Assembly (NCBI GenBank): GCA_963920705.1
Contig: OY987225.1
Span: 5,525,372-5,589,371, forward strand
DNA: 64,000 nt
Source of the DNA: Odiellus spinosus
Lineage: Eukaryota; Arthropoda; Arachnida; Opiliones; Phalangiidae
Direction of reading: 5' to 3'
The first letter of the stretch is position 1; the number at the start of each line of letters is the position of its first letter. Position numbers and translations under genes: made by a program. The notes under the pieces are model-generated. The model worked only from the letters and a program-made list of their open reading frames with translations. It searched no databases and was not told the origin of the DNA. This document shows positions 39,244 to 60,379 of this stretch, piece after piece.

Positions 39244-40265
39244 ATGAAAATGGCGAACAACGAAGTGTCGATGGAGGATTTTTCTTCGGCTTATTTTAAT
39301 TTAATTAATACGGTAATGATTTTTGCATTATGGCGAAAACAACGGCGAACTCGTTACGAGAGGCGTTTCTGGGTTCGCGACATTTTTCAAAGGAGAAAAG
39401 AGCAAGGTTTCTATTCTAACCTTATTCGCGAAATGCGGGAATCAGATCACGAGTCTCGTTTTAGGTAAGGCCTAAAAGCGTCTGCTCATAACTGTAAGAT
39501 TTTGTTTTATTAATGATATATATTTATAATTTAAAGATTCTTTCGGATGACGCCTATTCAGTTTGACCAAATTTTAAATATGGTCAAACCTAAGATATTG
39601 AAACAAACAACGCGATTTAGAAAACCAGTTGGACCTGAAGAACGGCTGGCACTGACATTAAGGCAAGATTCAGATCTAAATAATCAAATGTAATAAATAT
39701 TTAGTTTCACACGTGTCTCTCTCAATAATAGATACTTGGCTAGTGGTGATAATCAGACAAGCATGTCATTTGCATTTCGGCTTGGAAAGACTACTGTGTG
39801 CAATATAATTCGAGAAACCTGCAAAGCAATCTTTCACCAATATTCATGAAAATGCCTCAAACTGAAATTGAATGGGCTAGTATTGGAAAAGACTTTGAAA
39901 CACGCTGGAATCTTGCTCATTGCTGCGGAGCTCTGGATGGGAAGAATGTTGTGATCACATGCCCAGCAAATAGTGGATCGCAATATTTTAACTATAAAGG
40001 AACATTTAGTGTTGTTTTAATGGCACTTTGTGACGCTAATTATCGTTTTATCATGGTTGATATAGGGAACTATGGAAGTTCAAGTGATGCTGGAAAATTT
40101 TCATCTTGTAATTTTGGCGTCAAAGTGATAAACCAAATGCCACAAGAAAGAAATCTCCGAAATTCAGTTATACCATTCCCCCATTATTTTATTGGGGATG
40201 ATGCATTCCCGTTGCTGCCCAACACGATGAAACCTTATTCGGGGCGGTTTTTGGACGAAGTAAAA
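39244..40265 (+). pseudogene. PIF/Harbinger transposase, frameshifted and 3' truncated
   Basis: Exon 1 (39,244-39,464) starts MKMANNEVSMEDF and includes RRFWVRDIFQRRKEQG. Exon 2 (39,537-39,662) has FFRMTPIQFDQILNMV and PEERLALTLR; it ends at a GC donor (GC-AG intron). Exon 3 starts at 39,732 with YLASGDNQTSMSFAFRLGK. The frame changes near 39,845. Then come CCGALDGKNVVITCP with Asp 1, YFNYKGTFSVVLMAL and FIGDDAFPLLPN with Asp 2. The sequence runs off near 40,265 into C-rich tandem DNA, so the catalytic Glu region is absent. Confidence 0.85.
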
Positions 40266-40284
40266 CAGGGGCGTAACAACTAGG

Positions 40285-40715: not shown

Positions 40716-40723
40716 TATATAAA
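40716..40723 (+). promoter_or_regulatory. TATA box of the acidic gene, unit 1
   Basis: TATATAAA lies 75 bp ahead of the first ATG of the spliced acidic gene. The equivalent genes in the other units have TATATAAGG at 52,110-52,118 and, on minus, near 58,773. Confidence 0.5.
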
Positions 40724-40797
40724 GCCGGCTAATTTCTACAAAATAATCATTCTATTCAACGAAAATATTATATTCGAATCACTTATTTTAAAACTAA

Positions 40798-41190
40798 ATG
40801 AAAATGTGCCGTCATGAGAATCCCGAACAAATGTAAGTATTTTTACAATTTTATTTTCAAGTGTTATCGGAATTAAATTAACTATATAACGTAGTTGGGG
40901 GTACGAACAAGACTGGCCGGAGGGAGTACTAGCGGCTCACCAACTGGCTCTTATAGACATAGAGATGGAAGAAGAGATAGAGGCCGAACTTCAAAATGAA
41001 AATGCGGCGTAAATAGCATAAACCGGATTTTAAAGGGAAACTGTTACATTTTTTTCTATTTGTTTTTAGGTTGGCAGCCGCCGCGGAAGAGGGGTACGAC
41101 TCGGATGAGACGATACCCCTCGAAAGGGAGGTTTTAGTGGAAAGGGAAGGGGATTTTGAAGATGAGGATCAAAGCCCTCTGGATAATATC
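40798..41190 (+). CDS. Acidic spliced gene, unit 1 (unknown function)
   Basis: I do not recognise this protein. Three exons with canonical introns can be read: 40,798-40,831 (MKMCRHENPEQ), 40,894 to about 41,008 (GYEQDWPEGVLAAHQLAL then an acidic run) and about 41,069-41,190 (EEGYDSDETIPLEREVLV, then DFEDEDQSPLDN). The phases agree across both introns. The last exon ends at a GTATTT donor-like site or reads on to a nearby stop. The protein would be about 90-100 residues and strongly acidic. It sits upstream of and convergent with X1, where the other units carry their own acidic spliced genes. Confidence 0.6.
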
Positions 41191-41208
41191 AGGTATTTAT
41201 TATGGTTT

Positions 41209-42982
41209 TTAAGGTTTTGGGGTCTTATAGGCTGTTATGACGGGGTTTGACAGGATATAATCCGCGTAATGTAGCGAAGAATCCCGTGTACATTTAGCTT
41301 TCCCTATTCTATGCATGGAACATGGGTTTAAGGCAAATTCCAGTTTTGGGCAGTCCCACGCGTTTAAATCAAAAGTTTCCTTTTGAAATAACTGGCTAAC
41401 AATGATTTTTTTATCGTGACCTTTCACGTAAATTCGATTATAGTTTTGAAACTGAACATCGTTGCTATGAGTGTACAGACGCTCATAACCAGTCATACCC
41501 CTGCTCCAACCGATACCTAACATGTTATGTATAACATAATTGTTAGTAGCTCTAACCTTAGAAGGTATCTCGGTTGCCGCATAGGGCGGCCTATACGTTG
41601 CTAGAAGAAGGGGTTTTGGTTGGTATTTTGCATAACCAACTGGTTCGAATTTAACCACGCTCATTTCTTTAACTACATATTCCGGTTCCAACTTACTACG
41701 ATGAGAGTTAAACATCGGTTTTCCGCGCAGATACATAATGTCCACAACCAAAGATTTTTCCAATGAATCTAAAATTAGAAAAATTAACATTAAAATTTGT
41801 TTCTTTGCAGATTTCCTGAAAATCCCACCTGCTCTTTCCATATTTAGTTTACTATTGCATGAATCCAGAATGTCGCTTTCACGAACTTCTTATCGCTATG
41901 GTTATCCAGTCTCCCGGCGAGCCTATTTTTATCAATTTAAATGTTTTGGATAACGATAGCGATTATAATCTCGCGATTATTTTCCATTTTCCTTGGTACC
42001 TCTAAAATTTATATCCTCTATAACTATCTATTATAACTAACCCTTTCTAGCTTTTAGCTTTACCATTTAACTAAACCTTTCTAGCTTTTAACTTTATTTT
42101 AAATTCACTAACTTTTTCTAGCTTTTTCTTTTTATTTTTAATTAACTAACCATTAATGTTAGCTTTCACGTTTCAAAAATAACTTATTACCCATCTATAA
42201 CTTTTATATCTATTTAGCTAGGGTTTAATTCTATTTAATTTGCATGCTGCTTTTTTTTCTGTGACTCGTAGTTTAAATAAATCGACACCTCCCAGACTCT
42301 ATCCTCATCTCCGGCCGCCATAAAACATGCTTGTCAGGAATTGGAACAAAACTAGCAAAGGCAAGCCTTGTACCTCATAACACCTTCATCATTTAGCGCC
42401 GCAGCTGTTGGGCGCATTGACTGTATCCCAAGCAAATATTCATGCGTGGTTAAACTTCAGAGAAATCACAATCTTAGTAAATTGATACTATAGTCTAATA
42501 AAATATACTTCTGTATACACTAGAAATGGATTTCTGTCTATCCTAGTATAGTAAATGGTCTTTTCTCTCACATGCATTGTATCTATATTAAAATAAACTA
42601 ATGGCCTTTGTCTATGGTCTTTCTCTATCCTAGACTAGAAAATGAACTTTCGCTAGCCTAGAATAGCAAATAAACTTATGTTGATCCATTTGAGATCTCA
42701 TGTACATTATATACTCTTGATAATACTAAAATAAAAATATTTTTCTCACTCATTATGACTTTTATTTCATGTAATTTAAATTTCTATCATTTATAGATTT
42801 GTTTTTAAGTAACTATAACACTCTTGGTTGACGTACTAATACAACATTGGTCCGGATAAGGTTAGATCTAGAGTTATATTTATATTATTAATGCTATAGA
42901 CAGCTTTAAAGGGCTCATAAAACTATAACCGTAGAATATTTTCATAATGCAAAAACTGAAACTTACCAGCAGAAAAAGACAT
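41209..42982 (-). CDS. Gene X1 of the virus-like cluster; two exons, unknown function
   Basis: A 16-bp exon 1 (42,982-42,967, MSFSA plus one base) and exon 2 (41,768-41,209) flank a 1.2-kb intron, giving about 190 residues. Motifs shared with X2 and X3 are MYLRGKPMF (YLRGRPVF in X2), VVKEMSVVKF (VAKELAAV, VVKELSVA), IYVKGHDKK (LCKGHEK), and a C-terminal Cys/His group CPKLEF..NPCSMHR..KAKCTRD. That last group could bind metal. Exon 2 is intact to the stop. Each X gene has a tiny first exon ending in phase 1. It is divergent from Y1. I know no named family with certainty. A role in the nucleus or in nucleic-acid processing would be a guess. Confidence 0.72.
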
Positions 42983-43512
42983 GGTACTTCTTGTTGTTGT
43001 TTTGAGTGACGGTGAAAAAAGAAAACTTTGAGTTGTAAGTTTAATCAAACTTTGGATATCTTTCCAATGATTACGAAAGCCTTTTATACTCATTTTCAGG
43101 GTTAAAACTGAAGGAGTTTACCTCGTGGACCAAAAGTGTCTAACATTGAAATAGCCAATCAGAAGTTAGATTACACGTGCACTTTGCCTGTATCAAAGCT
43201 AAAATCCTATCTTTTATGAATTAACCAATCAAAAACTAATTTTACACGTGCCAACTAGTTTTTCAAGACTTATAAAATTTGATGGACCAATCAAAAAATT
43301 AGAAAAGTTAATTACCTAACTAGTTACTTATATTCTAACTTCACCCAAATTACCATATTTTAAACGGAATATCGTGAACTTCGCCCATCTCAGGGATTTT
43401 CAAAACCACACCCAGATGAGTATATAAAGATGGGAAATTCAGGCAAACCTCACAAACGTTTCCAGCTCTCATCTCTTCAAGTCTTCACAACCTTAAAGTG
43501 ATCCTGTAACTC
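42983..43512. promoter_or_regulatory. Divergent promoter region between X1 and Y1
   Basis: A 530-bp spacer between divergent starts. A TATATAAA box lies at 43,421-43,428 for Y1. Upstream are four related CCAATCA elements (near 43,155, 43,225 and 43,285) on the plus strand with TTACACGTGC next to two of them, so this looks like a real regulatory region. Confidence 0.5.
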
Positions 43513-43950
43513 ATGGCTGCTAATTCATCATCGAATAAACGCAAGGTAACCGACTTCTTTGATTCTTTACCTGATCTCTCAGATAATTTGGATTGGAAAG
43601 ATGAATTAATATCGCATATTAATACAGTTAAAGAAGGAAGTACTATTCAAAATCAAGGCGGCCTAGTTCCAAAATACGACGTCAAAGAAGACTCGGCTTC
43701 TTACTCTATAAGTTTACCAGCTCAAGTCGGAGATTACTACATTGATATACAAATTTACGAGTACAACAAGATTAAGAATTTACCAGCCAATGAAATTTGG
43801 ATGGCGGATGGTCGAAGACTACGTTTCTTTGCCCAAGAGAACAGCAAGGAGTGTAAACTGGTAAACTCTATTGTCACCCAAATTGCTAAAGATATGAGGC
43901 AAAATCCGAATAAGCAAATCAGTCCAGCGAACAAAAGGGTCAAAAAGTAA
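43513..43950 (+). CDS. Gene Y1 of the virus-like cluster; small nuclear-looking protein
   Basis: A complete 145-residue frame. It matches Y2 (54,610-55,032) along its whole length: SSNKRK, LPDLS, W(K)xEL, G(G)(L/I)(V/I)P, DIQIY and a basic end KRVKK. Basic clusters at both ends look like nuclear localisation signals; the middle alternates hydrophobic and acidic residues. There is no membrane segment and I recognise no domain. It is the first gene of the plus-strand series Y-Z-PolB. A LINE has inserted right at its stop codon without changing the frame. Confidence 0.75.
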   Translation: MAANSSSNKRKVTDFFDSLPDLSDNLDWKDELISHINTVKEGSTIQNQGGLVPKYDVKEDSASYSISLPAQVGDYYIDIQIYEYNKIKNLPANEIWMADGRRLRFFAQENSKECKLVNSIVTQIAKDMRQNPNKQISPANKRVKK

Positions 43951-43957
43951 GTCAATG

Positions 43958-44733
43958 CCATCTGCTTTTGTGCTGACTTCTGTCTTAAGAAGAATTACTG
44001 TGGCAAGGCTATTCGTATTTTCTCTGATAGCCAGGCTGCACTTAAGGCTATAAATGGTTCTGCAGTCTCGTCAAAACTAGTTTGCAGCTGTATTGAACTA
44101 CTCTCGATGCTGGGTACACGCAATAAGGTTTACCTTTGCTGGGTACCCGGACATCAAGGCCATCATGGCAATAAGGAGGCCGATATCCTTGCCAGGAAGG
44201 GGGCAGAGGGTAGATTCCTCGGACCCGAACCCGCTACCCCTATATCAACTGGCATGGTGCAGCATCAACTCCGCAAGGCCATGACCGACCTCCAACTAAA
44301 GCTTTGGCTTGAGATGGAGGGTCAAAGGCAGACCAAGGAATTTATCCTTGGTCCTTCTAAGAAGAGGGCAAAGGACCTCCTCACCCTCTCTAGGCCTGGT
44401 ATTAGAATGGTTTGTGGTCTACTAACGGGTCACTGTCATCTTAACAGGCACCTCCACTTGATTGGTATTGGGGATGATCCGCTCTGTAGAGCGTGTCTCA
44501 TTGAGGAGGAAACCTCATCCCATGTTCTCTGTAGCTGCATCAACTATTCAGCCCTGAGAATGGAGCATCTTGGTATGCATACAATGGAAACTCGTGAGTT
44601 TTCGGATATCCCGGTGAAGCAAATTGTTCGCTTCATCACAGCAACAGGTCTTTTTAAGACTTAAACTGCCTGGGGATGCACAATGGACTTCTAGTCGAGG
44701 TGCACGGTCAGAGTAATCCGACCACCCATTCTC

Positions 44734-44768
<35 letters not shown>
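43958..44768 (+). mobile_element. 5'-truncated LINE with RNase H and poly(A), inserted at the Y1 stop codon
   Basis: The insertion is flanked by GTCAATG (43,951-43,957 and 44,769-44,775). Coding sequence on plus gives RIFSDSQAAL and YLCWVPGHQGHHGNKEADILA, which are RNase H motifs with the catalytic Asp residues. After it comes a Cys/His end (CRACLIEEETSSHVLCSC) as in I/R1-type LINEs. It ends in a long A-run from about 44,738. Most of ORF2 and all of ORF1 are missing. The 3' end matches the 60-bp insert at 35,661-35,720. Confidence 0.9.
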
Positions 44769-44771
<3 letters not shown>

Positions 44772-44842
44772 AATGACTTTTCAATTTCTAACCCGGTTTA
44801 CGACTTCGAAACGAATTACGGCCTTGCTCTTAAAAGTAAAGT

Positions 44843-45676
44843 ATGAACCCACCCAGTTTGGTTATAACGGCGGTGAATTCGGTCTTAATTTATGGCCAAT
44901 CACGTTTATTCTTCATGTTAAAATTCAACAAAAACCTCGTCAAAGCCATTTACAAAAAACATTATAATTTTTGCAAGTACTTAACTTTGTTGGAAAATTT
45001 GGAATGGATTGAAAGGTACCCTGATAATATTACAAGAAGGTACTATTATAATGGGTTCTATATATGGAAAGTTTAATGCTTCAAATCCATTACCATCAAT
45101 CACCCCTGGATGGAGGAATATGACTTTTGGCGATTTTTTCCAAGCCCGCACGACGAAATGAGTCGTTTAAATACCTTATCTCTCAAACATTGGAAAGTCG
45201 AAGGGTTTCCGAGTTATATTAACGGTCATTATTTTGAGGATGAGAAACTGGTGGAATACGTTCTGCATAGTCTCAATAAGCAACTTTCAGAAAAATACCA
45301 ATCTCTAAAAAATGAATATAACTTTAATGAACAATATAGTAGTTATCTAGGTGACGGGTGGTGGTATGTCCTCGACAAAGATAGTAAGCGTGAAAATCTC
45401 GATGTAAGTGATCTCGAAGTAGATTTTATGTCCCAGAGTTTCAAGTTTTCCTACGACTATATGATTTTTACGAGATTCATTAAGGGATACATTTCTTGCA
45501 TTTTAAATCTCTTAACTCTACAAGTTCCCGATTGCTCGCATTTATCAGGCTTTGTCTCGTATACGGAAGAAGAATCAATGAACTTTATATATGAAGTCTT
45601 GGAACAAAGAAAGAAAAGATCATTAAAAAAAAAGCCCCTTACGTATATTTCGGGGTTTATCGACTTTGGAGGTTGA
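44843..45676 (+). pseudogene. Gene Z1 of the virus-like cluster, one in-frame stop
   Basis: A single frame of 277 codons with one TAA at 45,074-45,076. It matches Z2 (55,098-55,704): M(N/D)PPSL at the start, IYKxHxxxCxxL, LEWI/LDWI, YYxNG, HPW, FW(R)xxPxPxD and GDGW. It is rich in Trp, Tyr and Phe. I do not recognise the family. Z1 is longer than Z2 at the C-terminus (to DFGG). It lies 60 bp ahead of the PolB leader on the same strand. Because Y2 and Z2 are also preserved in order, Z is a true conserved gene of this element, not a chance ORF. Confidence 0.7.
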
Positions 45677-45739
45677 CATTTTATTGGCCCATCGCCGTTA
45701 AAAGCGAGCCGCGTTTTAACTTTCAAAACATTTCGAGTC

Positions 45740-48700
45740 ATGAGTAGCCAAGAATCGGACAGCGATCTGGATGAACAGCCATTAGATTTAAGTTTAAAAA
45801 GTAACCCAAAACAATTTTATTCTATTTATAAAATTCTAGCTAAACACTCGCGGAAATACAAATGTCAGCAGATAGAAGGTAAAGTGCGCTTCAAAAATTT
45901 GGATCAAATTAAACTGACTGAAATTCACGAGACTTTTGTCAGTATTATAAACTCTTTACTGTACGAATTGTTACGGGACTATCAAGGGTACAATCGAGTA
46001 CGTTTCTGTATTCGCTCGGATGAATTGGATAGTCCGATTAACCAAGCCTTTATGAACATAAATGACCTAACAGCCGAGAGAGTTATTCGAGCTATTAGTC
46101 AAGTAGCGCAATCGAACCAAAACTTTCATCTTGAGAGTTCACTAACTTTTGACGTGGTTCTATTACAATGTGACGTCCCAGTTGGAACTCTCCAAAAAGG
46201 TTTGAATCGTCGAAATATTGTCCTTTTGATACGTTTATTAAAATCAATCCCAATTACATTTATCTGGAAAATGATGATCATTTATGTTTCGGCCGAGCTT
46301 TGGCTATTGGTATCTTTTTAGCCGACCTCCGGGTCGAGAAAAGAAAGAACAAAGCCTTCAAACCGAGCAAAGACCAGACGTATTACTTTAGGGATCTTAA
46401 AGATAGTGCGAAGGATGTACAGAAACGTGAAGCTCTACTCTTATACCATAATGCCAAAATCGAACCAGGGGCCGTTAACTTGAAAAGTATCGAAAAATTC
46501 CAACACTTTCTGGTTGACTATCAAATTGTCATTATTCGATTAGAAAATATTAATGAATTTTATTTTCGCGGTCCCTGGCGTGAAAAACAAATTTTTATGG
46601 TTATTGTCAACGATCACGTGCACATATTGAAGGATTATCATTGTCTGAAGGGTGGGTCATCCTATTGTCCCAAATGCTTAAAGATTTTTACACGCTATAG
46701 TCAAAGTAAAGAACACGATTGCGAGACGCGTGTGAATTGTAGAAGATGTCGTATGTTAAACGTTTTTCACGAGGAAATTAACATTCCGTTACAGAGATGT
46801 CGCGACTGTGGGCGTTACTTTAGAGGTCCAGATTGCTTCAATTTACATTTAGCTAACGGCACGTGTAAAAATTTTAAACGTTGCGTAAAATGCGGATTAG
46901 AATTGAAAGACAATCACGAATGTTCGAGACCCTGTAAAAATTGTCGGAGAAAACACGAAAAAAACCGTTGTTACGTCATGCCTTTGGATACCAAGTACGA
47001 AAAGAGACGTTATTGTTATTTTGACACTGAGACTGTGACCAAAAATAACGAACATGTCCCAGTTCTGTTGGTTAGCGCCATGGAAAATGAAGAAGACGGA
47101 TAATACACCTACAGTATTTTCCAAGGGTATAAACTGCATTGACCAGTTTATGGCGTACCTCTTCCAAACGAAAGATACCTATATTCAACACGCCACGAAA
47201 CGTATGAAGAAAACGGTTCCAGTCTTTGAAAACGTAACATTAATCGCTCACAATTTTATGGGCTTTGATAGTTTCTTCATTCTAAACGCCTTATTAAAAA
47301 TGTCCATTACCCCTGATGTTGTCTTTAAAGGTAGCAAGCTGCTGGCCATCTTTCTGAACCAACAAAAAATGAAATTCTTGGATTCCTTTAATTTTGTGGC
47401 TCAACCTTTAAGATCGTTTCCCGCCACGTTTTCATTGGGGGAAAGCAAAAAAGAATTTTTCCCCTATACTTTTCATACTGAAGACACGTTAGATTACGTC
47501 GGGCCTCCCCCTAGCAAAGACTATTTTCAACCTGAATACATGAAAGAAAAAGATTACGCCGAGTTTAGCCATTGGTACGAAGAGAAGAAAAAGCAACCAG
47601 TCTATAATTTACGCGAAGAATTGGAGTATTACACAATCATGGATGTCAAGGTGTTACAACAACGAATGGATACCTTTCGAAGATTATTCCAGCAAGAAAC
47701 CGCTTACGACGTTATGAACATGAATGCTTTGACCATTGCCGGGGCTTGTACTAACATATTTCTGCACAAGTACCTGGAAGAATTTAATTTAGGCGTTGTT
47801 CCGGCAAACGGATATGGAAACAATGTCAATCAAAGTCAAGCCGCATTAAAGTGGTTGGCCTGGGAAGCGGAGCAACGTAACATCGACATACAAACCACCT
47901 TATCGTTGGGGGGTGAAAAGAAAATTGGTCGTTTTGCGGTTGACGGGTATTGCGCTAATCCAGAAATCATTTTTCAATACGACGGGGATTTTTTCACGGA
48001 TGCCCGCTTCATACAAAGGGTAGCCAGTGGAATCCTTTGATACAAGATTCTTTCAAAAACCTGTACGAAAGAACTTTAGATCGAGATGACGCCATCAAAG
48101 CCGACGCCCCCAATGCCGAATACGTCCGAATCTGGAGCTGCGAATGGGAAGAAATGCTGAAGACTAACCATGAGTTAAAAACATTCTGCAAATCTTTATC
48201 TTTTCGCGAGCCAATTGGTCCGAAATCCGCTTTATACGGCGGTCGGACAGAAGGTCTCGTTTTGTACCGAAAGGCTCAACCGGATGAGAAGATCTTATTC
48301 TACGATATAATGAGTCTTTACCCCTTTGTCTGTAAGTACCGTGACTATCCAAAGTTACACCCGGAAGTAATTAAAAAAAATTTTAATTACGAAACAAATT
48401 TTTATTTTGGATTAATGTCTTGCAAGATTTTGGCACCAAAAAACGCCTATATACCAGCCTTACCTTTTCGAACAAGGGGTAAACTTTTCTTTGCCTTATG
48501 TAAGACATGCGTGGAAAACGATCTTGAGTCTTGCACCCACAGTGACCAAGAAAGGGCTTTCGACGGCTGCTGGACGAGTGTTGAAATATACAATGCCGTG
48601 GAATTTGGATACGTCATAATGGAAATTTTCGAAGTTCATCACTACGCTGAAAGATACCGCTACGTTAAAGGGGAGGATCCAGGTTTCTTTGGAGGGTACA

Positions 48701-50083
48701 TCAATAACTTTTTGAAGCTGAAAATTCAAAATTCGGGATGGCCGAGAGAAGTGAAAACGGAAGCCGAAAAATCGGAATATTTGAAGGCGATCAAGGAGAG
48801 GGAAGACATTGATATAAAAGCTGAGGATGTGACGTGCAACACCCCTCTCAGAACTCTTGCCAAGCTAGCGCTCAACTGCAATTGGGGACGTCACTGCATG
48901 TCCCACGACGGTCTTTGTCAAAACCTACGAATCCTACATATCCATTGTCACAGACCCGACTATCGAACCTTTCAATGACGAAGTTTGTATGTTGTCTTAC
49001 AAGTTCAAGAAAGATTTTTGTCCGACGTACTACAAAGGCTCGCCAGTGGTTGGTTGCTTCGTTAGCTCCTATGGTCGCATTGTCTTGTTTCAAACTTTGC
49101 AACAGTTGGGGACCAGGATTTTATATTATGACACTGACTCGGTTTTTTTTGTCCGAAAGAACAATGACGAAACAAATTTTCCACCCCTCGGTCAATTTAT
49201 GGGAGACTGGACCGACGAAGTTCCGGGTACTTATATCACTGGCCAAATTCAAGAATTTCATGATTTGGAGGCAAATGAAATTTTGAAATACAATCAGAAG
49301 ATGGAGTATACCATCTTAACGGGAGAGAATCCGATAGGGGCTGATGACCTCACTCCCGATCTTTGGGAGATGATGGAAAAGGCAGTAATTTTATCCATTT
49401 CAGAAATATCTCCCCAATCGAAACCTTTGCTAGTTAATCCGCTGAAATCAATCGCTATAGAACCATTGTCTAATGAATTGATAACACTTAATTCCAATGA
49501 ATCGGTCGCGATTGTTAATGACAACTCCTCTGATCCATTGAATATAACTGGTATCAATTTATTAAATAATGATTCTATTGCGAAAGATTTGAAAAGAAAA
49601 ACCAGCGATTGGTTCGATTCCGAAAATATTTTTTTGAGCTCGAATAATTCCCCGCTATCTAAAATCACGCCCGAATCTAACCCCTCGGCAGTTTCTACTT
49701 TGAAATCGATCTCAGCAGAAACATCCTCTAATAAATTATTAGCACTTAATTCCAATGAATCAGTCGAAATTGTTAATAACAATTCCGCTGATTCATTGAA
49801 ATTAACTGATATTTATTTATTAGAAAATGAGTATATTGAAAGTGATTTAAAAAGAAAAGCTGACGACTGGTTTGATTCGGACAATATTTTTATGAACTCG
49901 GATATCTCCCAGGACTCTGAGTCAGATTCAAAGACCCCACCCGAGAAGAGCTGTAGATGGAGCGACAGCGAATTCAATAATTTAAACTCGGAAAAACATT
50001 TGTTCGGTTTAAATTTTGAGTCGCACTCGAATTCCGAAGACGATTCGAATTCAAAGCACGGAGTGTCCGAGACGCCAATTTAG
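45740..50083 (+). pseudogene. Protein-primed family B DNA polymerase of the virus-like cluster, frameshifted
   Basis: A full-length pPolB region of about 1,440 codons. The leader (45,740-46,245) is acidic at first. DDHLCFGRALAIG follows, then Cys/His modules (CPKCLKIF, CRRC, CRDCG, CVKCG, CKNC). Exonuclease motifs: YCYFDTETV, LIAHNFMGFDSFFI, YTIMDVKVL. Polymerase motifs: FYDIMSLYPFV (A), KLALNCNWG (B) and YYDTDSVFF (C). All catalytic acids are present, unlike the copy at 7-11 kb. The frame changes near 46,240, 47,090, 47,990 and 48,890, the latter two at homopolymer runs. The C-terminal 230 residues are a Ser/Asn/Asp-rich tail with two related blocks. No integrase, capsid or packaging ATPase lies nearby. 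Confidence 0.92.
49420..49905 (+). repeat. Two diverged blocks of about 85-95 codons in the PolB tail
   Basis: Block 1 has LNSNESVAIVNDNS, then DLKRKTSDWFDSENIF. Block 2 has LNSNESVEIVNNNS, then DLKRKADDWFDSDNIF. Each block is preceded by a Pro/Ser segment with LKSI. The duplication is in frame and diverged, so it is old. Such a tail is unusual for a pPolB. Confidence 0.8.
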
Positions 50084-50435
50084 GAAACGGGAGACTATCA
50101 TTTCAACTCTGGTAGAGAAGTTTATTTAAGCCCGTTCAAAAGACCATTTCCCGAGCTTACTCCTATTGCGGAATCACCAATAAGCCATCCATGAACGAGA
50201 CAAAATCCAAAATAAAAAACGGCCCTTTTAGTAGTAAAGAAGCCCCCTTCAGGAGTGAAAACCTGTTTATTAAGACACCAAAGGGTTATGTCAAAGGTTA
50301 AAGGTTAAAGGTCAAAAATGTCAAAAAAACATAGACATATATATGAAACCCCCGCTTATCATCTTTTACTTTTACACGCCAGGGGTAGATAGTGTGTTTC
50401 GTTGTAGTATTTGAAAGCGAATTATACGGTTAAAA

Positions 50436-50750
50436 ATGGGCGAAGAAACTGGTCGCGTCTCGTTGGAGCCTTGTCAGTGTTGTCGATGGAAACGTTTCGT
50501 TTATCACGATTCTTATTGCCTAAGACATTGGAAATATTTTGCCCGAGTATTTATAACGCCTATTGCCTTACCGATTGGTATAATTAGACCAATTTACAAT
50601 CGAGATGCGCTATACATCTTCGAGTCTACTTATCATATTCTCGGATTGCTACTAATTATGCCGTATATTTGGGAGATCTACGACAGTTCGTCTTTGAACA
50701 ATCGATGCCGTCGGTGTTATGGTTACATCATTCGAAGGGCTAAACGATAG
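50436..50750 (+). CDS. Gene W1: small Cys-rich protein with two hydrophobic segments
   Basis: A complete 104-residue frame. It starts with a cysteine cluster (EPCQCCRW) and has a hydrophobic stretch (FITPIALPIGII), a second one (HILGLLLIMPYIW) and a basic Cys end (NRCRRCYGYIIRRAKR). It could be a small two-pass membrane protein with Cys-rich tails on the same side. I do not recognise the family. A near-identical, stop-containing copy is W3 at 60,065-60,379. It follows PolB on the same strand and converges on V2. Confidence 0.68.
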   Translation: MGEETGRVSLEPCQCCRWKRFVYHDSYCLRHWKYFARVFITPIALPIGIIRPIYNRDALYIFESTYHILGLLLIMPYIWEIYDSSSLNNRCRRCYGYIIRRAKR

Positions 50751-50893
50751 TCTGAAATAGTATGTTAAATAAATTTGATACAATAAAAAATTGATTGTGA
50801 AAAAAATATTTGTTTTTATTTCATATACGGTTATAAATTTCGTCATATTCTTTTTGATACACAGAATCATTTGAAAACACTTTTCCACGCGGA

Positions 50894-51608
50894 TTATAAA
50901 ACCATGCTTTTTTTTAAGGCGTCCACTTGCGGGCGTAAAAACTGTCCGTCTTGTTGAGATGCGTAGTTACAACAATGGGTATCTCCTAGCCAGATGATTA
51001 TTTGTAATATCTCCATTAATTTGGCGATGTTCATTAAATAACCGTTACATCCACTGGATTTGTTTAAAGTCTTGTTTTTAATTATTAACGTCGACCGTAA
51101 CTCGTAGAGAATCTTTATCAATGCCGTGTTGATAACTCCTTCTACAGTGGTTTTAGAATGACATATATACCCGAGTATATAAGAGGCTTCGTGGAAATTT
51201 TCGCATTTATGAATTTCCGATTCTGAATATTTATGAATGATCCCTAAAGAACATTCGGTTTGTAATATATACCGACCGCAATCTCGACTATCGATAAATT
51301 CGAACATCGTGAAACTAGGGCTAACTTGAATACGTAATCCGATAGTTATACCAGTTTGATTTTTTTATCATTTCGTTGCATACAAAAACGCGTATTATAT
51401 GTTTTAAATATTCCGATTCAGTTTCCGCATTATTGTTATTTATAACTTCAACTAGCGCTAAGGTTCCTAACCTCGGTACTTTAGAAGTTAAATTTTCCAC
51501 GAGGCATGTTTTACAGCCGTTATGGTACGAAAAGTAGACCGGCATATACAAATGGTAGTAATTCTGAAGAAAATCCATTTGTCCATAGTCCGCTTCAAAC
51601 AGATCCAT
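50894..51608 (-). pseudogene. Gene V2, unit 1 (unknown function), frameshifted
   Basis: Two frames, 51,608-51,321 and 51,307-50,894, form one gene. The break is at a run of A where the 59 kb copy has one base fewer and stays open. The protein starts MDLFEADYGQMDFLQ and has HNGCKTCLVENL, DSRDCGRYIL and a C-terminal GYLMNIAKLMEILQ..LGDTHCCNYA stretch. I do not recognise the family. It lies 4 bp after V1 on the same strand, so the two are probably co-transcribed. The frame also ends early at a run of T near 50,910 compared with the other copy. Confidence 0.65.
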
Positions 51609-51611
51609 CTT

Positions 51612-51973
51612 TTAATCTTTTAGATAACGACAGCAGTATTCTTGATTTTCCTCTTCCTCGAAGAAAATGCACGGACTTCTATAGCGGTTTTCGTGCGAAG
51701 AATACGTATCGCAATTGATACAAAAGCGCGAGGCGGGGAGTAGGTTAAGGTAGCTCGATGGTATTGTAAGGTTAAGAACACAACCTCTCTGAATGTATAT
51801 AGCGTGTTTATAGCTCAGACAGTCCTTGTTAATGCAGTAGTGAATAGAGCCACCGCTTATTGGTAATGTAACTTCGCACACGTCCGAGCACCAGAAACAC
51901 GGAACTACTTGCCGCGGCCGAATTTCCGTCTCCCCGTCCCGGATCAAGCGTCTAAATTGTTGCCTTGTAAAAG
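51612..51973 (-). CDS. Gene V1, unit 1: Cys-rich protein, 3' exon
   Basis: An exon begins after a T-rich acceptor (TTTTTTTCAG) at 51,973. It encodes a Cys-rich domain: CFWCSDVCEV, HYCINKDCLSY, FCINCDTY and EYCCRY. Paired CxxC knuckles suggest zinc ribbons. There is no ATG in this exon, so an upstream exon must supply the start; I could not place it with confidence in 51,980-52,100. The sequence is nearly identical to V1 at 58,869-59,236. The function is unknown; a nucleic-acid-binding or regulatory role is only a guess. Confidence 0.62.
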
Positions 51974-52302
51974 CTGAAAAAAATTATGTCAGACAACGCC
52001 TAAAAACAAAAATACACTGACCCCGAAATAACAACGTGCTGTTTACTACTAACCCGGAAAAGAAAACAGTCTGTACCCTGAGGGTTTTTTCTCAGCGTTG
52101 ATTTTAAAGTATATAAGGCTGTTGGAAATATATTTGGATAAAAGCCTGATCGAGAAAGTACGTTTTTTTTCACGCTCGCCGCGGATTATTTTACGATTTG
52201 GAGATTTATTTCAACTGTTATATACCAAGTAAGAAGTTTTATTATAAATTTTTTCGCCAACCCGATGTTTGGATTAATATTTAAATAATACAATTTAAAG
52301 AG

Positions 52303-52856
52303 ATGGATAAGGGTGTAGAAGAAAAGGACACGGATCAGGGGGAAACTGATGAAGAGCTGGAGTTTGAAAACGAGTCTTGGCTAGGGTCTGACTCTGGCGA
52401 AGACGCGCTTGAGCTCGGGTAAGCTGTACTATTAATATCATAATTAGTTAACTACTGAATTTATGCTAGAAATTGAAAAAATGTTCTAGGAATTTCGAAT
52501 CTCCAGCCTCCCCTGATCCAGATTACTACAACAATTTCATCGCGGAACAGGAGAAGATGGATGATGTAGAAAGGAATAAGGTCTAGAGAAATCTATGAAA
52601 GGTATAGAAAAAGCTTTGAGAGCCTGAGAGAATACATTGGCGATTAAATTATACTCTTTATTATAACAGCCCCTGTAAAAGTGGTTCAACCCTTTTACTT
52701 CAAAGCTCGCTGGGTAGTATATAGATAGGGGTAAATTTCTTAACGTATTTTTAGTGCCTCTGCAAAATTCCGAGACTACTAAAGAGGTTGAAGAGCTCTA
52801 TAATGTTTTAGGGGATGTTTCGTTACCCTATCCTAATTCAGAGAATGAAGCTAGGG
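52303..52856 (+). pseudogene. Acidic spliced gene, unit 2, frameshifted
   Basis: Exon 1 (52,303-52,418) encodes MDKGVEEKDTDQ and ESWLGSDSGEDALELG, then a GTAAGC donor. Exon 2 starts at 52,490 (FESPASPDPDYYNNFIAEQ). Compared with the 63.1 kb copy it lacks 14 bp near 52,580, so its frame breaks. Exon 3 (52,755-52,856) gives NSETTKEVEELYNVLG and is followed by a GTAAG donor. The TATATAAGG box is at 52,110-52,118. The intron 2 sequence (ACAGCCCCTGTAAAAGTG) is shared with the 58.4 and 63.6 kb copies. The protein would be strongly acidic. Function unknown. Confidence 0.62.
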
Positions 52857-53012
52857 GTAAGAAAAAAACAATATATATGTTTTTTAAAATCTTTTATTTT
52901 AAAACATATTAGTTTTTATTTTTTATTTCTTTGGCGCTTTCGCCCACGCACAGTTTTTTTTTTTTGTTTTTCAGTTTTAAAAAGTTAAAAAAAAAATTTC
53001 CGCACTTAGCGA

Positions 53013-53064
53013 CGGACTGGGTGTAGAATTTAAAAAAGTTGGTAATTTTCCAACACCCAGTCCG
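53013..53064. terminator. Conserved stem-loop at the convergent acidic/X gene ends
   Basis: CGGACTGGGTGT (53,013-53,024) pairs perfectly with ACACCCAGTCCG (53,053-53,064) across a 28-base AT-rich loop that includes the X2 stop codon. The same stem occurs at 58,167-58,215 with one mismatch, and its non-coding arm is seen again at 63,973. It could aid 3' end formation of both genes, or be a replication or recombination signal. Confidence 0.55.
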
Positions 53065-53880
53065 CGTACACCTGCGCGCTTTCTCGCGCGCACTTTATCT
53101 TTACACCATCGTGCAAACTTCACGGGTTTGATGCCCATGGGACGGCGGGGCATCCGTATTTATCAAGGTCTTCGACCGCCGCTCCGATCAGCTCGGCCGC
53201 TAGTAAAGTCTTCTCGTGCCCCTTGCAGAGAATTTTTTTATAGCCATTTAAGGCTTTGCAATGGGGCACAAGACTGGTGTATGGTAAAGCCCCCGCCGCC
53301 CAGTTGAGCCCGGTGAGATTGGTGATGGCGAATGAGTTCGATTTCCGGACTGGGGTGGATACTTCACTCAAGGCGTAAGGTGACACGTATGACGAGTGTT
53401 CGAGTACCTTGGTGATTTACCCATCCCCACATCCGCACTTCATAAAGCTAACAGCCGCCAGCTCTTTAGCCACGAAATCGGCATGTTTTTTCCCCTTGCG
53501 GGGGCTGAATACGGGACGCCCCCGCAAGTAAATTACTTCTACAACAACAATATCCTCCGGTAGATCTATAATATAAAACCTTTTTTTTAGAACAACGAAT
53601 GAGGAACCCACCTCCCCATTTTGTGGGAATCAAAAACCTGATTTATGTTATTTACAACCCTGCTCTACTCGGCTACTACTACGCTAATCTAAAATTGTAA
53701 TCATCGTTTCGTTATATAATTTCTAAACTGTATACGTTGAATTATATTTAAAAACTGTTTAATGATATTTTAATGTATATATATTACTAATTTTGAAAAG
53801 AATAATGTATAAATTGAAACTAAATATTCTAATATTTAAAAAATAAAAAAGTACTTACAAGTTTGCGTAGCGGCGTTCAT
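53030..53880 (-). pseudogene. Gene X2 of the virus-like cluster, two in-frame stops
   Basis: The 22-bp exon 1 (53,880-53,859, MNAATQT plus one base) has a GTAAGT donor. Exon 2 runs 53,565-53,030. Motifs shared with X1 and X3 are VIYLRGRPVF, DFVAKELAAVSF, LCKGHEKTLL, CPAVPWASNP and KCARESAQVYADWVLEN. Two stops interrupt the frame: TAA at 53,417-53,419, and TGA at 53,120-53,122 where X1 and X3 have Cys in NPCSMH. The flanks stay in the same frame. The last codons form one arm of the stem-loop. Divergent from Y2. Confidence 0.72.
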
Positions 53881-54609
53881 GGTAGATATTAAGTTTGAAG
53901 TTTTTTAAAAAAAGTTTAAAGTCGGATTAAAACTTGAGAATTTAGAAGTAGATTTTTAGTTTTAAACTTGCAAAATTTTTTAGATTTTTAAGATTAAGTT
54001 AAGATGAAGTCGAAGTTTTCAGAAGACAGCAGCGGATGATCCGGGTTAAAAGCGAGATACTAGTTAAAACGTTTTTTCGATCCTTATATAGTCTAAGATT
54101 TTTTTTTTGATCAAATTATATTTTTTTTTTGTTAGAAAGTTGTTTTAGATCTATTCGCATCATAAAATGTCAGTTAATTCCAGTTATAACTAGTTCCAAA
54201 GCTTGAACTAGAAAATTAACTATTCCAGCTAACTAACATTGGAAGTCCGAACTCGGTTTAAAGGAAGTAAAATCCTCATTTTCTGACAGTTTCAATTTTT
54301 TGATATTATAAATCGTTAAAGATCTATTCGGATCTAAAAATCAGGATAATGCATGTTCCGAAGCTTGAACGTTTGCTAAAATAAAATAGATCCTCGCTTA
54401 TTTGAAAAAAATTTGACCTCGTCTAAAAAAGATAGAAAAATCCGCGTAGGTTGGGCTTTAAGATGTGACCTACATATCAAACTTTTCCAACTAGCCAACT
54501 TAAAAATCCGAACAGGCCAGAGGGCCTCAAATTTTTTTTTCGTCAAAAATACCTATATCAGGTGATATATAAGCCGAAATTTTTAGTCGAAAATATCACA
54601 ACTCTCGCC
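53881..54609. promoter_or_regulatory. Divergent promoter region between X2 and Y2
   Basis: A 730-bp AT-rich spacer. TATATAAG at 54,566-54,573 lies 37 bp ahead of the Y2 ATG. The words AGATCTATTCG, AGCTTGAAC and CGTCTAAAA recur, so it may have a modular upstream region. Confidence 0.5.
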
Positions 54610-55032
54610 ATGGCCGGCAGCTCGAATAAACGAAAAATGGACTTAATCAACACTCTACCGGATCTCTCCGAAGTTGAAGACTGGAAAGCCGAACTAGAAA
54701 GCCATATCCAATCAATGATCGAAGAGTCTACAATCGACAAGCAGGGAGGAATCATTCCTAGATTCGACGTGAAAAGCGATAACTCGACGTATACGATCAA
54801 ACTACCAGCGACCAAGGGCCAGGTCTATTTCGATATTCAGATTTACAATTATTCTGATATAAAAGATGTCTCAGCGTCTCAAATCTGGGAGCAAAGTTCG
54901 AGACGATTGAAGTTCGTCGCCGACGAGGATTCCCAATTGATCAACACGTTGGTCAGCCGAATCGCCCGGGAAATGAGGGAAAATTCCGAAAGAGTTATCG
55001 TCCCACCGATCAAACGTGTGAAGAAAAACTAA
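54610..55032 (+). CDS. Gene Y2 of the virus-like cluster; small nuclear-looking protein
   Basis: A 140-residue intact frame beginning at the ATG of GCCATGGCC (54,610), which has a better start context than the upstream in-frame Met at 54,562. It aligns end to end with Y1: SSNKRK start, LPDLS, DWKAELESHI, QGGIIPRFDV, VYFDIQIYNY and SRIAREMREN, with a basic KRVKK end. Both copies keep basic clusters at each end. No recognised domain. Conservation of two diverged but intact copies suggests selection on the protein before endogenisation. Confidence 0.75.
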   Translation: MAGSSNKRKMDLINTLPDLSEVEDWKAELESHIQSMIEESTIDKQGGIIPRFDVKSDNSTYTIKLPATKGQVYFDIQIYNYSDIKDVSASQIWEQSSRRLKFVADEDSQLINTLVSRIAREMRENSERVIVPPIKRVKKN

Positions 55033-55097
55033 GTATTGATTTTTTTTGTTTGAAAAAACAATAATCAGGTTAGTTAACTTTTTTTTGTGTTTTAAAT

Positions 55098-55704
55098 ATG
55101 GATCCGCCCAGTCTCTTAATTCTAGCAACTAATTGCGTTGTTTATACCGGGCAAAACAAGACGGTTATCCAATTTAGGTTTTAACCCGGTTTTAATTAAA
55201 AACATTTACAAAGCGCACTTAGAATACTGCAATTTTCTTTGGCTCCTCCATGAATTGGACTGGATACACGTAGTGCCATCTAACGTGATTCGTAAATATT
55301 ATATTAATGGAAAATATTGTTCCAAAGTTACAATTTTTAAAAGAATTATCATAATGCACCCGTGGGTTTCGGAATTTGGTTTCTGGCGCTTATCGCCTAA
55401 TCCAAACGATAAACTTGGTATTCAAAAAATATTAAATGAACAAAAATGGCTCAAAAGATTACCCACCTTTATCGATGGATTATATACCACTAATCCCGAT
55501 GTCGTGGTTTATATTCTAAAAAGTCTGAGAAGACAATTAAACGAGAGTTTTAATGAATTAAAGAGTAAATATAACTTTCAACATACGCCCCATTTAAATG
55601 TCGGTGATGGATGGTGTCTATTAGATCGTGATCCAAACCCTCCTGGCATTAACTTTTCTTATATTCAGAGTAACGATTTTATAACGACTGCTTTTAAAGT
55701 CTAG
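55098..55704 (+). pseudogene. Gene Z2 of the virus-like cluster, one frame change
   Basis: It starts MDPPSLLILATNCVV at 55,098 (like MNPPSLVITAVNSVL of Z1). The frame changes near 55,180 and then continues IYKAHLEYCNFLWLL, LDWIHVVPSNVIRKYY, HPWVSEFGFWRLSP and NVGDGWCLLDRDP to the stop at 55,704. It is shorter than Z1 at the C-terminus. PolB does not follow; similarity to the unit 1 order ends here, so this unit is truncated. Confidence 0.7.
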
Positions 55705-55993: not shown

Positions 55994-56037
55994 TTAGTGT
56001 CCATCGGTGGGGGGTGCCGGGCCGTTCTCGTGCTGAC

Positions 56038-56185
56038 ACATAGCGGAGACGACGATCTCTCTCGCCCCTCCCATTAACACCTCCCGCGCGAGGAAGGCCG
56101 CGCGTGCTGCCACATAGCGGAGACGACAATCTCTCTCGCCCCTCCCATCAACACCTCCCGCGCGAGGAAGGCCGCGCGTGCGACG
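56038..56185. repeat. 74-bp tandem duplication
   Basis: Units 56,038-56,111 and 56,112-56,185 both start ACATAGCGGAGACGAC and differ at only a few positions. The unit length is not a multiple of three, so it shifts the frame of the minus-strand exon it lies in. Confidence 0.9.
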
Positions 56186-56251
56186 TCATCCATGGTAGGG
56201 GCGGTGGTCACGCGCCAATCCACCAGCTGTTGGAGCTCGGAGAGCACCCTG

Positions 56252-56253
56252 TT

Positions 56254-56299
<46 letters not shown>

Positions 56300-56300
56300 T
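56252..56300. repeat. (AAT)n microsatellite
   Basis: About 16 AAT units lie in the intron between exons B and C of the GC-rich gene. Confidence 0.95.
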
Positions 56301-57014
56301 AGTAAGTTACATTAAGAGCTGGTTAAGAGCTCATTAGCCACGTACCGTGTACCCCAGACGTCATTAGCGGCCAGGCAGCTCGTCGGAACCTTGTTGTTCC
56401 GCACAACCGCCTGGACCTGATCTAGGGCAGCGACAGGATACTCCCCGTAATGATCCTCGTACCGCCCGGCGAGATGCTGGAAGTTGGCGAGAATGCTACA
56501 AATATATATATATATATATAAAAAATACTATTTGAGCTTTAGAAGTTGATGAAACTTACATGACTGAGTGGGCGTTAGGCCCATGGTTTGGTCCCACGTG
56601 GTTTAACCACGGTTGGTCTGGCCGGTCCGAGGTATCAATTATGGGGTAGGCGGGTGAATGGCGGCGGTCTGCGGGCTGTGGCGACGGGGTCCCTCTACGC
56701 TGGAGAGCTCCCGCTCGCTGCTCCGGGGTCGCGGCTGGATCCCCCTCCTCCCAAAAAGGGGCTTCATATTCCCCGCCTAAGCGGACGGGGCTAGCGGTTG
56801 GCGGCGGAGACGGACGCCGGTGTACTCGACGTACTCCCACAATCCGGGCTTCGGGCGCCCCATCTCCGAAAAGAGCGCGCCGAGCTCTGGCGTGGTGTCG
56901 GCCGGCTCGGGGGTCCCCATAGGCGACCTCGCCATCCAACGGCGGTCCAGAGACCGGCGCGGGGAGTACGCCGAGCTTCCGGGGGCTGAGGCAGGGCCCT
57001 CCAGCTTTACACCG

Positions 57015-57660
57015 CTATTATATAAAAAAAAATTTTAAATATCTCCAAAATAGGAGGTTTGTAAATCTCAGCACTTCAAGTTGGAATATGTTTTAGACCC
57101 CTTAACCTAGAGTGTAATCAATTTCTTAAACTATATTTCTAAATATATCTCTGAAGTTGTTTATAAAAACCACACGAAATTAAAGTTATTTCTAAAATAG
57201 GGGTGTAATCGGCAAAGTTAATTCTATAATATATCTGACCGCGCCAAAGTTAAATATCTGTTGAAAGTATATTATATTTCTAAATATAGCCCAGAAGTTG
57301 TTTATTAAAAATGACCCGAAATTAAAAGTTATTTATAATATATACATCCCCGAAATCGGCAAAGTTATTTACTAAAATATGCTCCGAAATTAATCAATGA
57401 TATTTCTAAAATAGGGCTGAAATCGCCAATGTTATTTAATAAAAATGACCCGGTATTAAACAGTTATTTTCTAAAACTATATCCAACTTTAAGTACCGAG
57501 ATTTTCTATTTTTAAAGTATTTACGTCAAATCGGGAATCCGGGCAGCCATCTTATTTTTTAGGGTTTTAGTTCTGTTGGTTAGGGTTCGAACGGCGAGAG
57601 TAGAATGGTAGTCTTGGTTAAAAATTTAGGCGTTTTTATCCTAAAAAATTGTATAGGAAA
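57015..57660. repeat. Degenerate tandem repeats, AT-rich
   Basis: Irregular repeats of the words GTTATTTCTAAAATAGGG, GAAATCGGCAAAGTTA and AAAATGACCCG(A/G) recur with spacings of about 60-120 bp between 57,130 and 57,480. No coding sequence. The tract may be the upstream region of X3, whose first exon I cannot place. Confidence 0.6.
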
Positions 57661-57690: not shown

Positions 57691-58201
57691 GTGCCATCGC
57701 GACCCTCCAATGGTCGCGACAAGTTCAGCACCCGCCTTGGCCGTATACACGCCGATTTCGTCGTGAAAGAACTTTCGGTGGCCAAGTTTGTCAAGTGCGG
57801 GTGCGAGGAGTATAGCTCGAAGGTGGTGGAGCTGTCGAGCTATCTCCCCCCTTACGATCTATGCGAAGTGAGTGGCCCAGTAAAAAAAACAAACGCTTTC
57901 GCCGTGGCAAACCTCACCGGTTATGGGCAGGACGGCGGGGCTTTTACCATACAGCCGACTCGTGCCCCATTGCGAAGCCTTTAAAGACTTCGAACTCATA
58001 CTTTGCAAGGGGTACGAGAAGGCACATTTGGTGTCGAGTTTGTTGAAGGTCCAGGCGCTAGACCTCGACAAGCTCAGCTGCCCCGCCGTACCTTTCGTGG
58101 CTAACCCATGCAGCATGCACTCGGGGAAGAAGATCAAATGCGCGCGGGAAACTGTGCGTCTGCACGCGGACTGGGTGTTGGAAAACCACCAAATGCTCTA
58201 A
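57691..58201 (+). pseudogene. Gene X3 (inverted unit 3), frameshifted, 5' end unclear
   Basis: The inverted-unit copy of X. It has DFVVKELSVAKFVKCGC, YLPPYDLCEVSGPV and NAFAVANLTG. The frame then changes near 57,935 and continues LVPHCEAFKDFELILCKGYEK, CPAVPFVANPCSMHSGKK and RLHADWVLENHQ to a stop at 58,201. The Cys and His residues lost in X2 are kept here. The YLRG motif region upstream is not clear, and no tiny first exon was found. Its end forms a stem-loop arm. Confidence 0.7.
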
Positions 58202-58328: not shown

Positions 58329-58729
58329 TTACTCGTTCTCTTCAGCGACGGAGTTGGGATGGGGGATTGTTGACGCGTCGGAATCAACATCCCCATCTTC
58401 CATGTCGCTTTCCTCGTCACTTAAAAAGAGAGATTTACAGGAGCTAATAGGAAATGAATTATGAAGTTTACCCCTATCTATACTAGCCAACGAGCTTTAT
58501 TGCAAAAGGGTTGAAACACTTTTACAGGGGCTGTTATAAATAACGATTATAATTTAAGCTTCTTACCTGATATAAGCTGCTAGATACTCGAAAAGGTTTT
58601 CTAGATAGCCGATTCTCGCGGACTTCCGATAACGATTAGAGCTAAAATATATATATATATATTAGTTTTAATATAACTTATAAGAGAGCTTAATAAAACT
58701 CACTTGTTCGACGGAGTCTCGCAAACCAT
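58329..58729 (-). CDS. Acidic spliced gene, unit 3, complete (63 residues)
   Basis: Three exons, all with canonical sites and matching phases: 58,729-58,704 (MVCETPSN), 58,641-58,567 (RYRKSARIGYLENLFEYLA) and 58,419-58,329 (SDEESDMEDGDVDSDAS to EENE and a stop). A TATATAAGGC box lies about 45 bp upstream. Its second intron is homologous to intron 2 of the acidic genes at 52.3 and 62.9 kb, so this is the positional copy, but its first exon differs. It is the only intact version of the acidic gene in the cluster. The acidic C-terminus could be an activation-type domain; this is a guess. Confidence 0.7.
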
Positions 58730-58868
58730 TTTTAACAGCTTATAGCTATTGCCAAAAGCCTTATATACTCCAAAGCACCGCGAGGTCGCTATCCGCATAG
58801 AAAAAAACGTTATTTCGGGGTCAGTGTATTTTTGTTTTGTAGGCGTTGTCTGACATAATTATTTTCAG

Positions 58869-59236
58869 CTTTTACAAGGCAACAGTTCAGACGCTTGATC
58901 CCGGACGGGGAGACGGAGATTCGACCGCGTCAAGTGGTTCCGTGTTTCTGGTGCTCGGACGTGTGCGAAGTTTTATTACCAATAAGCGGTGGCTCTATTC
59001 ACTACTGCATTAACAAGGACTGTCTGAGCTATAAACACGCTATATACATTCAGAGAGGGTGCGTTCTTAACCTTACAATACCATCGAGCTACCTTAACCT
59101 ACTCCCCGCCTCGCGCTTTTGTATCAATTGCGATACGTATCCTTCGCACGAAAACCGCTATAGAAGTCCGTGCATTTTATTCGAGGAAGAAAATCAAGAA
59201 TACTGTTGTCGTTATCTAAAAGATGGATCTGTTTGA
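58869..59236 (+). CDS. Gene V1, unit 3: Cys-rich protein, 3' exon
   Basis: Nearly identical to the 51.6-52.0 kb copy. The exon starts after an ATTATTTTCAG acceptor at 58,869. Cys motifs: CFWCSDVCEV, HYCINKDC, FCINCDTY and EYCCRY. It ends at 59,236 and overlaps the V2 start by 14 bp. The shared stop context and overlap differ slightly between the two copies. The first exon with the start codon was not identified. Confidence 0.62.
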
Positions 59237-59949
59237 AGCGGACTATGGACAAATGGATTTTCTTCAGAATTACTACCATTTGTATATGCCGGCCTACTTT
59301 TCGTACCATAACGGCTGTAAAACTTGCCTCGTGGAAAATTTAACTTCTAAAGTGCCGAGGTTAGGAACCTTAGCGCTAGTTGAAGTTATAAATAACAATA
59401 ATGCGGAAACTGAATCGGAATATTTAAAACATATAATACGCGTTTTTGTATACAACGAAATGATAAAAAATCAAACTGGTATAACTATTGGATTACGTAT
59501 TCAAGTTAGCCCTAGTTTCACGATGTTCGAATTTATCGATTGTCGAGATTGCGGTCGGTATATATTACAAACCGAATGTTCTTTAGGGATCATTCATAAA
59601 TATTCAGAATCGGAAATTCATAAATGCCAAAATTTCCACGAAGCCTCTTATATACTTCGGTATATATGTCATTCTAAAACCGCTGTAGAAGGAGTTGATA
59701 AAGATTCTCTACGAATTACGGTCGACGTTAATAATTAAAAACAAGACTTTAAACAAATCCAGTGGATGTAACGGTTATTTAATGAACATCGCCAAATTAA
59801 TTGAGATATTACAAATAATCATCTGGCTAGGAGATACCCATTGTTGTAACTACGCATCTCAACAAGACGGACAGTTTTTACGCCCGCAAGTGGATGCCTT
59901 AAAAAAAGCATGGGTTTATAATCCGAGTGGGAAAAGTGTTTTCAAATGA
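59223..59949 (+). pseudogene. Gene V2, unit 3, one frame change
   Basis: It starts MDLFEADYGQMDFLQ like the unit 1 copy and stays open through the A-run that breaks unit 1 (MIKNQTGITIG). It has DCRDCGRYILQTECSLG. The frame changes near 59,690, then continues ILYELRSTLIIKNKTLN, GCNGYLMNIAKLIEILQ and LGDTHCCNYASQQDGQ to a stop at 59,949. Together the two copies show that the full protein is about 240 residues. No known domain recognised. It is convergent with W3. Confidence 0.65.
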
Positions 59950-60064
59950 TTCTGTATATCAAAAAGAATATGTCGAAATTTATAACCGTATACGAAATAA
60001 AAACAAATATTTTTTCCCAATCAATTTTTTATTGTATCAAATTTATTTAACATACTATTTCAGA

Positions 60065-60379
60065 CTATCGTTTAACCCTTCGAATGAGGTAACCATAACA
60101 CCGACGTCATCGATTGTTCAAAGACGAACTGTCGTAGATCTCCCAAATATACGGCATAATTAGTAGCAATCCGAGAATATGATAAGTAGACTAGAAGATA
60201 TATCGCGCATCTCGATTGTAAATTGATCTAATTATACCAATTGGTAAGGCAATAGGCGTGAAAAACACTCGAGCAAAATATTTCCAACGTCTTAGGCAAT
60301 AAGAATCGTGATAAACGAAACGATTCCATCGACAACACTGACAAGTCTCCAACGAGACGCGACCAGTGTCTTCGTCCAT
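60065..60379 (-). pseudogene. Gene W3 (unit 3), one in-frame stop
   Basis: The copy of W1 on minus. It has TCQCCRWNRFVYHDSYCLRR and FFTPIALPIGIIRSIY, then TAG at 60,191-60,193 where W1 has Glu. Homology continues past it to the end near 60,065, with other changes. Flanking noncoding sequence also matches unit 1 as far as about 60,600 (50,235 in unit 1). Confidence 0.75.

Follow-up and report, generated by a model that had tools for sequence, protein, structure and literature searches.

How did a protein-primed DNA polymerase gene come to lie between two diverged copies of the same small gene block in the genome of the harvestman Odiellus spinosus? The locus occupies the right part of a 64,000-nucleotide window (assembly GCA_963920705.1, contig OY987225.1, positions 5,525,372 to 5,589,371 of the forward strand; all positions below are those of the window). 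An earlier note had described a virus-like element with a protein-primed PolB (pPolB) there, in the order acidic, X, Y, Z, PolB, W, V2/V1, acidic, X, Y, Z, with homologous X, Y and Z proteins in the two cassettes. Is this one element of about 15 kb, or the junction of two genomes, as the note alternatively proposed? The gene order and the homologies are confirmed, and the region exceeds the extent first noted: it also includes a W-V block in inverted orientation (58.8-60.6 kb), one more X and additional acidic heads; within 23 kb there are three X genes and three related acidic heads besides acidic head 1. The region appears to preserve several DNA virus-like elements, related to one another, now decayed and with a self-priming DNA polymerase in common, whose relatives exchanged gene blocks. 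Of the two earlier models the evidence tilts towards the second, widened to several related recombined genomes: this is probably a cluster of two or more decayed, endogenised and recombined genomes whose lineage is related to polintons and adintoviruses and has a protein-primed PolB. The observed support comes from the motifs of the polymerase, an X-Y-Z block present twice, two sharply bounded, near-identical W-V modules, and selection that acted before decay.

What kind of polymerase is this? The PolB gene (45740-50083, plus strand) is identified by a Pfam match and by motifs; it is spread over several broken frames and is non-functional here. Two of the five pieces scanned match Pfam PF03175 (DNA_pol_B_2; E 7e-24 and 2e-19), and ExoI (47023), ExoII (47249), ExoIII (47630), PolA (48304) and PolC (49130) can be placed, giving both the exonuclease and the palm motifs of the DNA_pol_B_2 family that mark a polinton-type polymerase. 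Further upstream lie OTU-like motifs, with Cys at 46273 and His at 46612. The N-terminus is interpreted after PMC11071308, both for a terminal protein and for a viral OTU-like domain with catalytic Cys and His. Pfam returns no OTU match among the PolB pieces scanned from either pPolB of the window; the OTU-like part does align with the N-terminal open reading frame (ORF) of the second one (32% over 117 columns, E 8e-7). The first PolB ORF (45740-46321) shows no significant match to that N-terminal ORF, so that a terminal-protein role is assigned to it by position only. The second pPolB is a different one, lies in pieces at 7114-11237 (plus strand), is 28-37% identical to the first and is not accompanied by any credible relative of X, Y, Z, V or W. 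In the database searches, 2 of 1269 protein-database candidates were accepted for the exonuclease piece; the palm piece matched nothing in the phage collection and no solved structure by sequence.

The polymerase also carries a C-terminal extension made of a duplicated segment (49404-49652 and 49662-49910, 75.5% identical). Each repeat contains the motif KRK..D.FDS (49592 and 49850), which recurs at the N-terminus of Y1 (43537) and is otherwise absent from all six frames of the window, against 0.0001 occurrences expected. That figure is to be read knowing that the motif was picked after being noticed and that two of its three sites belong to the duplicated segment. A common docking or nuclear-import signal is one possibility.

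How are the two cassettes related? X1 (41209-42982, minus strand) has its main exon at 41209-41769 and its first exon from an ATG at 42982; X2 (53100-53880, minus strand; ATG 53880) is broken, as is X3 (57691-58201, plus strand), which is 56% identical to X2 over 131 codons. For both X1 and X2 a short first exon can be proposed, followed by GTAAGT and a putative phase-1 intron, whose acceptor AG precedes the main exon and whose phase, judged by eye from the sequence, is identical in both. Y1 (43513-43950, 145 amino acids) and Y2 (54566-55032, ATG 54610, 140 amino acids) are open on the plus strand. In both cassettes the spacer between X and Y holds a TATA site on each strand (43088 minus and 43421 plus; 54090 minus and 54566 plus); there are 22 TATA-like sites in 24 kb, so any single one is weak evidence. 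The 3' end of a long interspersed nuclear element (LINE) with poly-A, foreign to the element, is inserted after Y1 (43951-44770, plus strand).

The proportion of differing synonymous sites (pS) between cassette pairs is 0.80-0.92, and that of nonsynonymous sites (pN) 0.33-0.45, from codon comparisons whose pieces overlap by 6 codons (X1/X3), 3 (X2/X3) and 1 (V2). A recent chromosomal duplication is rejected as the origin of the cassettes because pS is near saturation and pN is not. Both evolved under selection before they decayed. Could they then be paralogous cassettes of one element of about 15 kb, flanking PolB-W-V, the second being an ancient duplication with divided roles? The selection on both and their common promoter and intron layout fit this model, as does the clade-2 head that follows V in both W-V copies. 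Set against it is the composition of the second cassette: GC content at third codon positions is 0.57 in X2 and 0.55 in Y2 (0.68 in X3), compared with 0.39 in X1, 0.37 in Y1, 0.43 in PolB, 0.38 in W and 0.42 in V. The unit is also seen at no second locus, identity drops abruptly between W-V and head, and a clade-2 acidic head at 62.8 kb has no adjoining V. We regard a single element as possible, yet doubtful.

That drop in identity shows along the W-V modules. The first copy (50230-52032, with edges between genes) contains W (50436-50750, plus strand), Cys-rich with a hydrophobic middle by eye, and V (50894-51983, minus strand), likewise Cys-rich by eye, in which V1 (51612-51983) is open and V2 (50894-51608) is frame-broken. 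The second copy (58809-60600) is inverted, with V1 at 58859-59233 and a broken V2 at 59220-59946 on the plus strand and W at 60110-60430 on the minus strand. BLAST aligns 50230-52032 with 60600-58809 at 92% with gaps. Per bin of 150 aligned columns, identity is 0.94-0.99 over about 50.4-51.9 kb, close to 97% in most of these bins, and 0.89 and 0.91 in the edge bins; beyond 52,053 it falls to 0.65, 0.50, 0.57, 0.50, 0.73, 0.56, 0.71, 0.59, 0.67, 0.59 and 0.47 (bins of 52.05-53.66 kb), the first four bins past the edge being gap-rich and barely alignable. Gene order nevertheless persists past the edge, since an element within the intron of the acidic gene and X still follow in sequence. This is most simply read as genomes having recombined with one another at the V-acidic spacer, with gene conversion of W-V as the other option.

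When did the two W-V copies part? Over 434 codons they differ by 26.7 synonymous changes in 269 sites and 31.3 nonsynonymous changes in 1033 sites (pN/pS 0.31, p 9e-6), a sign of purifying selection; taken singly, V1 gives p 5e-5, V2 0.04 and W 0.07. The two blocks thus parted in functional genomes. V2 is broken at different places in the two copies; the breakage came after they separated. An inverted duplication of W-V after insertion is disfavoured, as the copy differences carry the selection signal.

Module edges that fall between genes, and modules with different histories, would also suit a multi-segment virus that became integrated as a row of neighbouring segments, with W-V, PolB and the heads as separate, reassorting molecules. 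Bidnaviruses, too, carry a polinton-derived PolB (PMC4061559). The genome of the Drosophila Vesanto virus is reported to comprise up to twelve linear segments; three of them bear PolB homologues, and several bear other genes that are homologous (PMC8363768). It shows that one virus can have paralogous genes on several molecules (PMC8363768, PMC13267423). With our locus those viruses share a polinton-derived pPolB, in their case in an insect virus, and Vesanto virus also shares paralogous genes, there on several segments. As to differences, the parvovirus-like capsid and superfamily 3 helicase of bidnaviruses are unrecognised among the ORFs scanned with Pfam, no segment ends were found, and Y-Z-PolB is continuous with no visible seam except the LINE. 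Limited searches returned no inverted terminal repeats at the module edges and no pair that could mark the ends of an adintovirus-type element. We consider a segmented origin improbable.

Acidic head 1 (40716-41200, plus strand; TATA 40716, ATG 40798) looks spliced, with exons drawn by eye, and lacks the intronic element. Head 2 (52110-52880, plus strand; TATA 52110, ATG 52303) also looks spliced and contains the element at 52644-52743. An inverted copy (58330-58770, minus strand; TATA 58767, coding part by eye) has it at 58459-58574. Head 3 (62802-64000, plus strand), whose left neighbour is not V, is a copy of 52194-53039 (BLAST 89% and 86% with gaps; 0.86-0.96 per bin), has the element at 63599-63710 and is interrupted by an insertion at 63230-63546, itself bounded by an inverted repeat of about 90 bases at 80%. 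The intronic element, some 75-100 bases with a short inverted repeat, is thus kept in all three clade-2 heads; the inverted copy is 86% and 87.5% identical to the other two, in surroundings at about 0.5-0.7. With up to 3 mismatches its pattern occurs at only these three places in the window (6 matches over both strands, against a mean of 0.03 in shuffled sequence). Regulation or replication is a possible role for it as a signal.

What is the X protein? The predicted model of X1 is weak and suggests a DnaQ/RNase T-like fold; against the PDB, RNase T heads its best rows together with further DEDDh nucleases (top E 1.7e-3). By eye, without residue-level superposition, the D-x-E of the DEDDh active site is absent from the first strand in both X1 and X2. 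X could be a protein of DnaQ fold that works on nucleic acid, or a derivative that has lost its activity. By sequence X1 has no solved-structure match, and 0 of 26 protein-database candidates were accepted. Against the viral library 4 of 417 structural matches reach E<=0.001, and the three named ones come from two ichnoviruses and Drosophila-associated adintovirus 2. The earlier label of a virus-like pPolB element is supported by the PolB motifs and, more weakly, by these structural matches.

Where, then, does the element belong? Adintoviruses are defined by an OTU-bearing PolB, a hexon and an integrase (PMC11071296). With them and the polintons (Mavericks) the cluster shares a pPolB that combines exonuclease and palm motifs with OTU-like motifs (Cys and His), and X has a structurally similar counterpart in Drosophila-associated adintovirus 2; by its polymerase and X, the element sits close to both groups. 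Unlike them, its Y, Z, V and W are without known counterparts in the collections searched, and hexon, penton, integrase, packaging ATPase and protease are unrecognised in the scanned ORFs of these decayed copies, by Pfam (28 of the 116 cluster ORFs of at least 58 amino acids) and also by NCBIfam. For a retrovirus-like integrase with chromodomain, no rve match was seen in the scanned cluster ORFs; the window's rve match is in ORF 12761-13309, outside the cluster. Are we then looking at a capsid-less chromosomal transposon family with a pPolB, copied and shuffled in the host genome with no virus stage? The missing capsid, packaging ATPase, protease and integrase would agree with this, although such genes may be lost, unrecognised or beyond the window, and X is tied to virus proteins; we judge it very improbable.

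Among the ichnoviruses, AsIV-cont00151-ORF1 of Apophua simplicipes ichnovirus resembles X structurally (E 3e-7, 23% identity), and so does GfV-D6-ORF1 (E 2.7e-4) of Ichnoviriform fumiferanae, presumably the ichnovirus of Glypta fumiferanae. Apart from X, no ichnovirus gene is recognised in the cluster, and ichnoviruses are not known to carry a pPolB element of this layout. Their ancestry is an open question, which X could help to test if the link is true. In ticks, ichnovirus-like sequences have been reported beside adintovirus ones and taken for retroviral genes, not true polydnaviruses (PMC10675110); which ichnovirus gene is involved is left unspecified there, and the report speaks neither for nor against the X link.

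The earlier remark that no named family has this gene set holds in part: PolB and X point to polintons and adintoviruses, and Y, Z, V and W have no credible family. Searches of Pfam, PHROGs and NCBIfam with X, Y, Z, V and W returned nothing beyond chance-level rows, and host gene families are rejected accordingly. By sequence, Y, Z and V1 had chance-level rows against solved structures and V2 had no match. The protein database was queried with X1, Y and the PolB exonuclease piece, leaving out Z, V and W; 0 of 290 candidates were accepted for Y, whose predicted model is unusable (predicted local distance difference test 39). The viral_contigs set, scanned with the PolB exonuclease piece, Y, the PolB palm alignment, V1, Z, X1 and P0001 (W and V2 left out), yielded no relatives, nor did genome_contigs with Y and the PolB palm alignment, the only two queries used there. 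No paper listed in searches of the open library reports such a gene set, judged from titles and abstract openings.

Returning to the favoured reading of several recombined genomes, each in life would have been a linear double-stranded DNA copied in the nucleus. Priming would fall to a terminal-protein domain at the PolB N-terminus, which the OTU-like domain would cut off; one divergent promoter would drive X and Y, and the host would splice X and the acidic gene. Related genomes would have recombined in intergenic spaces, with the result that one W-V module came to sit beside different heads of the acidic-X type. The two cassettes would be the heads of two lineages, brought together by neighbouring insertion or recombination. 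A bolder version, which we offer tentatively and think rather unlikely, is a new arthropod pPolB virus lineage without the known polinton capsid/integrase set, in which a constant W-V block is combined with variable acidic-X(-Y) heads exchanged between genes, X and head diversifying as the remainder stays conserved. If true, these proposals would add a new polinton/adintovirus branch and four gene families without credible match in the libraries searched, would tie an ichnovirus protein to pPolB elements, and would document, in fossil form, that small DNA viruses exchanged blocks of their genomes.

Other features share the window. Rfam finds no family in 40-64 kb, and there is no tRNA in the window. 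A GC-rich block at 56000-57020 (58.6% in 56001-57000; the remaining 1-kb bins of 40-64 kb have 30-44%) has minus-strand open frames resembling exons of an unrelated gene; at 56029-56181 it also holds a 74-base tandem repeat. The stretch 61291-62496, about 1.2 kb in full, is bounded by a 56-base inverted repeat (98% identical) and is probably a small non-autonomous DNA transposon. Pieces of DDE_Tnp_4 transposase, which we take to be Harbinger-type, lie just left of the cluster (39798-40283) and at 26367-27392. Retrotransposon ORFs occur at 11890-13963 (reverse transcriptase (RT) RNase H and integrase, the rve match in 12761-13309 adjoining the RT RNase H ORF) and at 17878-21200 (RVT_1), presumably Gypsy-type and LINE-type, respectively.
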